From assembly GCA_021647985.1 (NCBI GenBank), contig JAKITQ010000002.1, forward strand, positions 1 to 64,000: a stretch of DNA of 64,000 nt, read 5' to 3'. Position 1 is the first letter of the stretch. Every line of letters begins with the position of its first letter. The DNA comes from Flavobacteriaceae bacterium. GTDB lineage: Bacteria; Bacteroidota; Bacteroidia; Flavobacteriales; Flavobacteriaceae. Shown here in pieces: positions 12,830 through 63,990 of this stretch. Position numbers and translations under genes: made by a program. The notes beneath the pieces are model-generated. The model worked only from the letters and a program-made list of their open reading frames with translations, was not told where the DNA came from and made no database searches.

Positions 12830-13105
12830 ATGCAGGAAGCATCATTTTTAGGATTTTTTAGAACTATTTTAATCATTATGGTTATTTATTATGGATTGAA
12901 ATTTGTTGGGAGAATTTTGTTTCCAATATTTTTTCAAAAGATGGTGAAAAACGTTGAAAAAAAGGTAAGAGAGCAGCAAGGGTACCAAGCTCCGGTAGAT
13001 GAATCTAAGGAAGGTGAAACTACTATTGCCAAGAAACCAATCCCCAAAAAGGGAAGCAATAACAATGTTGGAGAGTATGTTGATTATGAGGAAGTAGATG
13101 AGTAG
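12830..13105 (+). CDS. DUF4834 family small membrane protein
   Basis: The 91-residue protein has one N-terminal transmembrane segment (about 8-33, FFRTILIIMVIYYGLKFVGRILFPI), then a basic stretch (KMVKNVEKKVREQQG) and an acidic tail. This is the DUF4834 pattern, found in Flavobacteriia just upstream of the YfhO-like gene, as here. Function unknown. The gene is followed by a tract of imperfect heptad repeats. Confidence 0.85.
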   Translation: MQEASFLGFFRTILIIMVIYYGLKFVGRILFPIFFQKMVKNVEKKVREQQGYQAPVDESKEGETTIAKKPIPKKGSNNNVGEYVDYEEVDE

Positions 13106-13114
13106 AATTTTAAA

Positions 13115-13242
<128 letters not shown>

Positions 13243-35642: not shown

Positions 35643-36551
35643 TTATAAAAGATAAGCTGCTTTAATCATTCTATCATTTTTAAAAATATCTTTTTTTAAC
35701 GCTATATTTCTAAAACCTTTTTTAAGTAATAGCGCTTTGGTTTCATTGCCAAAATATTGATTAATTTCAAAATAAAGTTGTCCATTTTTATTTAAATTTT
35801 TCTTGGCCAAATCGGCTATTTTATCATAAAAAATTAAAGCGTTTTCATTTTTCACAAATAAAGCAAGGTGTGGCTCGTACTGTAAAACATTATTATTTAT
35901 TTCATGTTTTTCCAATTCTCGTACATATGGTGGGTTACTTATGATAAGGTCGAATTTTACAGAAAATTTTTTCGTATTGAGAATGTCTTTATGAAGAAAT
36001 TGTATGTCTACACCGTTTAATTTAGCATTATATTTTGCTACCTCCAAGGCTTTATCTGATATGTCTAGAGCCCAAATAGTAGCATTTGAAATATTTTTAG
36101 CCAATGCGATGGCAATGCAGCCACTACCGGTACCAATGTCTATAATGTTGAGGTTTGTTGTTTGTGTTCGAAATTTGTTATTCGTAATTAATTTTTCACT
36201 TTTCACTTTTAACTTTCTACTTTCAACTCCTTCAATTACCCACTTAACAAGTTCTTCAGTTTCTGGCCTAGGTATTAAGACATTTGCATCCACTTTAAAA
36301 TTTAAGCCATAAAACTCTGTTGCGCCTAATATGTATTGTATGGGTATTTCTTTTTTTAATTTCGCTAAAGCGGAATGGTATTTTTGTTCTGCTTCAAAAA
36401 CAATTTCCAAATTGGGATCTAAAGCAAGATCGATTCTATTTAAATTTAAAAAGGAATAAGTAAGTAAATAAAAAAAGTTATCTATTTCTTGTTTGGGATA
36501 TAGATTTAAAAGTTCTTTTTTAAAGATATTTTTAAATTTTTTAATTGTCAT
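35643..36551 (-). CDS. prmC: Release factor glutamine methyltransferase PrmC, with a repeat-derived insert
   Basis: An N-terminal helical domain (about 1-75) precedes the methyltransferase domain with VLIPRPETEELV, the SAM motif IDIGTGSGCIAIALAK and the catalytic LIISNPPYVRELE. The enzyme methylates the GGQ glutamine of release factors. Between PETEELV and IDIGTGSG, residues 109-134 (ESRKLKVKSEKLITNN...) are encoded by an in-frame copy of the heptad-type repeat seen in intergenic places in this window. Family members usually have a short linker here. The reading frame is intact, so the enzyme is probably functional with an extended surface loop. Confidence 0.95.
   Translation of the reverse strand: MTIKKFKNIFKKELLNLYPKQEIDNFFYLLTYSFLNLNRIDLALDPNLEIVFEAEQKYHSALAKLKKEIPIQYILGATEFYGLNFKVDANVLIPRPETEELVKWVIEGVESRKLKVKSEKLITNNKFRTQTTNLNIIDIGTGSGCIAIALAKNISNATIWALDISDKALEVAKYNAKLNGVDIQFLHKDILNTKKFSVKFDLIISNPPYVRELEKHEINNNVLQYEPHLALFVKNENALIFYDKIADLAKKNLNKNGQLYFEINQYFGNETKALLLKKGFRNIALKKDIFKNDRMIKAAYLL
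36150..36230 (-). repeat. Heptad-type repeat inserted in frame within prmC
   Basis: The coding (minus) strand reads GTTGAAAGTAGAAAGTTAAAAGTGAAAAGTG in units of about seven bases, then ACGAATAACAAATTTCG. It matches in style the repeats at 13115 and 63902. About 81 bases (27 codons) are involved; exact borders are approximate. Confidence 0.65.
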
Positions 36552-63235: not shown

Positions 63236-63931
63236 ATGGATCTTAAAAAATCTACTAATAAGAAAATATCAAAAATACTGTTACTACTTTTTTTTATAGT
63301 TTCTATTTTAGATATAATAGGAGTTGCCTATTCTATTTCAATTATACAAACCATATTTAAGCCAATGATAATGTTATCATTAACGGCATTATATTATTTT
63401 ACTGTTACAAAGAAAAATAATTGGTATTTATTGGCTTTGGCATTTTCATTTTTAGGGGATGTTTTTTTATTGGATAAATACAATCTTTTTATATTTGGAA
63501 TTGCTTCTTTTTTAATTACACAAGTCCTTTTTATTATCATCATTGTAAAACAAATGAAAAAGCCTACAAATTTTCAAAAATATTTATATGCTTTTTTATA
63601 TGCCAATTACGTTGTGTATTTGATTGCTTTGCTAAAACCTAATTTAGGAGCATTGCTTTATCCCGTAGTTATTTATGGTATTACCATAGCAATTTTCGCC
63701 TTGGTCGCAACTTTAAACTATGTTACTAAAAGAAGCAAAACATCTCTTATTTTAATGGTTGGAGCTATATTATTTGTTGCCTCAGATAGTTTAATCGCTT
63801 TGCATAAATTTCATGAAGCCCAAAATATTTATCCTGTTGCCATAATGACCACCTATGTTTTGGCCCAATATTTAATTTATAGGTTTATGGTGGAGGGGAA
63901 TGAAGTTGAAGGTAGAAAAGTAGAAAGTTGA
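63236..63931 (+). CDS. Lysoplasmalogenase (YhhN family) membrane protein
   Basis: The 231-residue protein has about eight helices and the YhhN signatures LALAFSFLGDVFLLDKYNLFIFGIASFL and LMVGAILFVASDSLIALHKF, with the conserved aspartates in GDVFLL and SDSLIA. Family members hydrolyse the vinyl-ether bond of lysoplasmalogens; other lipids are possible in this host. It starts four bases after ligA. Its last ~12 residues (EGNEVEGRKVES) and its stop codon are encoded by the heptad-type repeat that runs on to the window end. Confidence 0.88.
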   Translation: MDLKKSTNKKISKILLLLFFIVSILDIIGVAYSISIIQTIFKPMIMLSLTALYYFTVTKKNNWYLLALAFSFLGDVFLLDKYNLFIFGIASFLITQVLFIIIIVKQMKKPTNFQKYLYAFLYANYVVYLIALLKPNLGALLYPVVIYGITIAIFALVATLNYVTKRSKTSLILMVGAILFVASDSLIALHKFHEAQNIYPVAIMTTYVLAQYLIYRFMVEGNEVEGRKVES

Positions 63932-63990
63932 AAAGTTAAAAGGTAAAAGGTAAAAAGTAGAAAGTAGTAGGTAGAAAGAAGTAAGTAGTA
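63893..63990 (+). repeat. Heptad-type purine-rich repeat, overlapping the end of the YhhN gene
   Basis: GAAGTTGAAGGTAGAAAAGTAGAAAGTTGAAAAGTTAAAAGGTAAAAGG and the following bases are imperfect GT(A/T)(G/A)AAA units. The tract resembles the copies at 13115 and 36150. It may continue past the window. Confidence 0.7.

Follow-up and report, generated by a model that had tools for sequence, protein, structure and literature searches.

In-frame heptanucleotide arrays in the PrmC linker of a Flavobacteriaceae bacterium and their recurrence in relatives

The window analysed here is a 64-kb stretch (GC content 31%) of a Flavobacteriaceae draft genome of 3.0 Mb in 80 contigs. It contains a prmC gene whose product belongs to NCBIfam family TIGR03534 (253 bits at a cut-off of 199). 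The catalytic NPPY motif is invariant across the PrmC alignment, and the nearest named PrmC, from an uncultured Lutibacter, is 59% identical. An earlier note on this DNA had claimed a heptad repeat in frame inside prmC with consequences for the protein, and this is real: the coding strand from 36228 to 36194 reads AGTTGAA AGTAGAA AGTTAAA AGTGAAA AGTGAAA, five units that are translated into VESRKLKVKSEK (Table 1). The same note had drawn the repeat as 27 codons from 36150 to 36230; the array does lie within this interval, but the clear part covers 35 nt or about 12 codons, and the linker exceeds the 17-18-aa core found in many relatives by about 19 codons. The DNA at ~36150-36193, coding for ITNNKFRTQTTN, differs from the GTAGAAA repeat type and is weakly 7-periodic. 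Nor does the insert sit strictly between the N-terminal and SAM-binding parts of the protein, as had been supposed; it is flanked by the helix that follows PRPETEEL and by strand 1 of the Rossmann fold.

Table 1. Features of the prmC locus and further heptad arrays in the window
Feature	Position	Strand	Remarks
prmC, peptide chain release factor N(5)-glutamine methyltransferase	35643..36551	-	302 aa; TIGR03534 equivalog
PrmC linker	36141..36248	-	36 codons; from the helix after PRPETEEL to strand 1 of the SAM domain
In-frame heptad array in prmC	36194..36228	-	35 nt, 5 AGTNNAA units, ~12 codons; encodes VESRKLKVKSEK
Remainder of the PrmC linker	36141..36193	-	LITNNKFRTQTTNLNII; weakly 7-periodic, without a clear unit
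PrmC peptide stretch at the array/linker			VESRKLKVKSEKLITNNK
AGTAGAA heptad array	13105..13176	+	directly 3' of a stop codon; CCAAAAG heptads come next (13193-13230)
Heptad array	63903..63988	+	end of a YhhN-family gene (63236-63931), runs on downstream

The tandem 7-nt units exceed what chance would produce, as in a heptanucleotide simple sequence repeat. The prmC array reaches a lag-7 score of 24/28, and scores of at least 21/28 occur three times in the window (13105-13176, 36180-36231 and 63915-63990), whereas order-3 Markov sequences of equal length give 0.025 such places each. When synonymous codons were redrawn for the array peptide, 46 of 20,000 trials matched the score of the real DNA; when its codons or residues were shuffled, none of 20,000 did. 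The two further arrays agree only in part with the view that this repeat type is intergenic elsewhere in the window: one directly follows a stop codon, whereas in the other, heptad DNA encodes the nine C-terminal amino acids (EVEGRKVES) of the YhhN-family protein and provides its TGA stop. Across the 3.0-Mb genome, a search for the repeat found about 16 arrays of the prmC-type unit family, each with three to about ten units and without fixed ends, those in prmC and yggS being in frame; shares of coding and intergenic arrays refer to the retrieved array loci. Mixed blocks, in which heptads of the classes AGTNNAA, CCAAAAG and ATACCAA succeed one another, were also seen (13105-13230 of the window; loci L003 and L013), often directly 3' of stop codons.

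Since 7 and 3 share no common factor, a uniform heptad array passes through each reading register within 21 nt, and uniform arrays of GTTGAAA, GTAGAAA, GTTAAAA or GTGAAAA hit a stop in each forward frame over that distance. Among the other arrays of the host genome, none of 135 window-frames of 35 nt was open, and random five-unit arrays assembled from host units kept a given frame open in 12% of cases. Of the frames of the prmC array, just its own is open, because the stop of each unit (TGA, TAG or TAA) falls outside that frame. This stop-avoiding mix of units suggests that an open frame was selected for, either while the array grew or afterwards.

In an alignment to relatives, linkers of the same length but unrelated in DNA sequence had been sought; what it revealed instead was an expansion: the PrmC linker measures 17-18 aa in many Flavobacteriaceae, with 20 aa also frequent in Flavobacterium, compared with 36 aa here. 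Five genus members (G133, G123, G134, G129 and G125) have an array in register with that of the host, encoding E-V-K-S-x-K-L-K-V-K-S or a near variant. In a tree of 94 PrmC sequences from which the linker had been excluded, the first four, though not G125, form one supported clade with the host; G139, inside the host's clade, lacks this pattern. Mapping the heptad label on this tree gave seven changes, at least five of them forced by supported branches, and the differences in units between lineages require several independent origins. The linker slot holds CAACAAT heptads in G027 and G275, the CCAACAG and AAAAGCC types in G226 and G392, CCCAAAA in G048 and, within a linker of 40 aa, AGAAGTC in G405. 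Among named genomes, AAAAATC occurs in Flavobacteria bacterium GWA2_35_26 and AGAAGTC in Muricauda sp. F6463D, besides AAAAGGC, AACTTCC, ACTCATA and more.

The linker also stands out quantitatively. In 79 prmC loci of named genomes, located with an alignment query, nine lag-7 arrays were found in 4.7 kb of linker and one in 61.8 kb of other prmC sequence; the remaining ORFs of these loci yielded one in 190.6 kb, a spurious ORF within a long AAAACCC array, and their noncoding DNA 16 in 40.1 kb. The same linkers held no array at lag 6 and two at lag 8. A second sample of loci gave six lag-7 arrays in 2.8 kb of linker, which do not equal six events as clade-mates of one origin are included, and its sole match elsewhere was a run of N. 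Over both Flavobacteriaceae samples, the density was about 2 per kb in linkers, at most 0.016 per kb in other coding DNA and at most 0.4 per kb in noncoding DNA, so that linkers exceed both the remainder of prmC and other ORFs more than 100-fold. The 13 highest lag-7 scorers among 75 prmC genes, a set enriched for long linkers, all peaked in the linker. A pattern search with gaps of 79-109 mostly hit a TGGAT lying further upstream in prmC and served for G405, G284 and G398 only. Heptads were also observed close by: Seonamhaeicola aphaedonensis has a CCAAAGA array in a second PrmC loop, DILKPKTKDQSPRFDV (L258 1999-2046), and in Kordia jejudonensis about 75 copies of AAAACCC and several other heptad classes adjoin prmC (L271 2694-3237).

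Protein-preserving arrays in frame were found in PrmC and YggS of the host and in NamZ and a TANGO2-family protein of G129. Host YggS (L023 1399-2073, G000 C55), assigned to the PLP homeostasis family from its sequence (Pfam Ala_racemase_N), contains a (CAACTTT)n array that encodes STFNFQLST just before LSMGMS and that, in the orientation (TTTCAAC)n, is stop-free in every frame. It is common to G129 and G138, and G139 has a CTCAAAA heptad at that site. The NamZ proteins of G129 and G123, 89% identical, read VIEVKS[QKSKVKS]HYV and VIEVKSRFV with intact flanks, a difference of exactly 21 nt or three units between the two species at this place. The TANGO2 loop, 11 aa in seven others examined, is longer by 14 aa (42 nt) in G129 and by 7 aa in G000. 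In G129, arrays also form the ends of putative PurK-like and methionine-lyase-like genes, named from sequence.

A different kind of repeat occupies the PrmC linker elsewhere. In G038, G084, G086, G028 and G276 the linker is CHSERSEES or a variant, encoded by GTCATTCTGAACGTAGTGAAGAATC, and G398 has a related, longer form. The dispersed repeat GTCATTCTGARC..GAAGAATC has 16 copies in G038, ten in G084 and six in G086, one copy lying inside prmC in each; it was absent from all five control genomes, and the GTCATTC..GAAGAATC repeat was not found in the host genome. As such a repeat also fills the slot, the slot accepts repeats of more than one origin. The GTCATTCTGARC-NNNN-YGAAGAATC form is spread over several Flavobacteriaceae genomes, enters genes, and has apparent compensating changes (GAGC..GCGA, GAAC..GTGA; observed in G038, G084, G086 and G405). 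Hairpin folding of the GTCATTC repeat was no better than that of shuffled sequences, though its consensus is able to pair.

The site of expansion was viewed on an AlphaFold model based on 31 PrmC sequences, with a mean pLDDT of 89.9. As the input lacked the first Met, model numbers are protein numbers minus one. An uncertain loop with a pLDDT of about 61 links a long helix (model residues 95-121) to strand 1 at 133. The model matches E. coli PrmC in complex with RF1 (2b3t; TM 0.81 normalised by query length), and its fold also matches the PrmC structure 1sg9. The SAM site of class I methyltransferases lies at the other end of the strands, and the loop before strand 1 points away from it; such a position would explain the tolerance of arrays there. 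On this model, we propose that the expansion gives a longer, basic helix end and a flexible loop, located opposite the SAM site in the fold. The effect on PrmC would probably be near neutral, and the enzyme with its array would still work.

Several other explanations deserve consideration. A Lys-rich linker in a genome of 31% GC might turn periodic by chance, and the array-free linkers of relatives are indeed rich in Lys, Glu and Asn as well; nevertheless, we regard such a coincidence as very improbable, given that clear enrichment is confined to lag 7, that the score was out of reach of codon and residue shuffles, and that units not coding for Lys exist, e.g. AACTTCC and CAACAAT. Hardest of all to credit is an assembly or binning error that put the repeat into prmC: the draft assembly consists of 80 contigs and is 87% complete, but the ORF runs unbroken across the array and related linker arrays are present in five relatives that were assembled separately. 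Heptad linkers occur in cultured isolates too and are hence more than a product of metagenome assembly.

Relocation of a whole dispersed copy from intergenic DNA, comparable to Rickettsia palindromic elements (RPEs), would fit the existence of some 16 arrays of one unit family in the genome and the GTCATTCTGARC..GAAGAATC repeat in the PrmC slot of other genera. We nonetheless think it unlikely for prmC, as heptad arrays vary in length and lack fixed ends, NamZ grew by units in place, G405 has no other arrays of its prmC unit, and the prmC array does not fold. Alternatively, the array itself might be selected, either through a basic linker that alters PrmC activity, release-factor binding or regulation, or through a length that acts as a phase-variation switch, and both the frameshift that a single-unit change would cause, as in contingency loci, and the KSEKLKVKS-like peptide common to several genus members at a PrmC identity of 62-66% might be read that way. 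This appears improbable, since the same slot is filled elsewhere by unrelated sequences, G139 lacks the pattern despite being nested in the clade, and mixing of units should reduce slippage; nothing in the data calls for a function of the basic loop.

We therefore favour, with a probability of roughly two in three, slippage-type growth by 7 nt, at times replaced by insertion of a dispersed repeat, that is tolerated in frame in surface loops; slippage as the mechanism, and tolerance rather than benefit, are what we infer. Flavobacteriaceae genomes would grow tandem 7-bp repeats where constraint is low, mainly between genes, and the loop before strand 1 of PrmC would be one of the few coding sites accepting heptad growth. 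Being tolerant, this loop would gather arrays repeatedly, in different lineages and with different units. Arrays would grow by duplication of 7 nt in a slippage-type process and, since only frame-keeping changes survive, growth within genes would tend to proceed three units (21 nt, 7 aa) at a time. The host prmC array would have been inherited from the ancestor of a few genus members and then kept; its units are mixed such that the potential stop of each lies out of frame. Growth by 7 nt under frame selection would explain the lag-7 signal, the differing units, the NamZ step and the array of G405, the sole AGANGTY array in 3.4 Mb.

Growth by heptads does not account for everything. Linker lengths in the prmC clade (21, 24, 26, 28 and 36 aa) do not form a series with 7-aa spacing, which means that indels of other kinds took place as well, and the excess of 5 aa in YggS counts against pure 7-aa steps. 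About 16 sites with one unit family in the host genome would not be expected from purely local growth off random seeds; a bias in seeding sequence or some copying between arrays may contribute to this shared family. Comparing in-gene units with each genome's own unit usage, as concerted evolution would predict, gave log-likelihoods that do not separate the genomes and so lend that idea no support. Where the earlier note had read the locus as repeat spread or expansion, local expansion explains most, and true dispersal is seen only for the GTCATTC..GAAGAATC repeat of other genera.

More tentatively, and with odds that we put below even, heptanucleotide slippage might be a general maker of loops in Flavobacteriaceae, in which a 21-nt filter yields 7-residue extensions at a few recurrent sites and mixed units are kept since the commonest uniform ones bring a stop. 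Bacteroidetes heptamer repeats have so far mostly been described as intergenic; here they are raw material for protein sequence, and one site of a conserved translation-termination enzyme has been built from heptads many times with different units. Repeat DNA can thus supply new loops without breaking the gene, and the PrmC linker offers a natural series from repeat DNA to protein loop, including the question of why 7 nt is preferred. Our literature search, whose coverage left out most subscription papers, found no description of the PrmC linker as a recurrent heptad site and, for heptad repeats inside genes of Flavobacteria, gave a single paper, on TAACTGA repeats.

REP-like dispersed palindromes have many copies and complementary ends. 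These features are shared by the GTCATTC..GAAGAATC repeat of other genera, which is a candidate member of that class. In-frame repeats in genes are already known from Rickettsia, where RPEs are elements of ~150 bp with a conserved peptide, in frame within conserved genes at tolerated sites (PMC10969869). The likeness lies in repeat DNA that is in frame in conserved genes and alters the protein at tolerated sites; the prmC array differs in being short, non-palindromic and tandem. The kinship suggested by the earlier note did not hold up, as there is no fold, ends are not conserved and NamZ, the case resolved best, grew in place by three units. As an RPE, the prmC array was rejected: it folds at 0 kcal/mol (z 0.33), and when the 81-nt interval was shuffled, 188 of 200 versions folded as well or better. 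It is 35 nt long, and the arrays of the genome vary in unit number and have no fixed ends, in contrast to a defined element. Heptad repeats as such are likewise known, as are their high frequency among long simple repeats and the idea of slippage (PMC4679880 and work cited there). According to Mrazek 2007, as summarised in MacGregor 2015 (PMC4679880), heptads are the most abundant class in most repeat-rich prokaryote genomes, polymerase slippage was proposed as the cause of long simple sequence repeats, and units in multiples of three are the kind most to be expected in coding DNA. The prmC array resembles this heptanucleotide class in its tandem 7-nt units and differs in recurring in frame in one loop. 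Direct repeats of the TAACTGA heptamer, found in Beggiatoaceae, Cyanobacteria and Bacteroidetes, are intergenic and sometimes lie beside other heptamers; one pair is near the end of a purC gene, and a translational role upstream of start codons has been proposed (PMC4679880). TAACTGA is a fixed heptamer with this proposed role upstream of starts, whereas the arrays described here have variable units and lie after stops or in loops.
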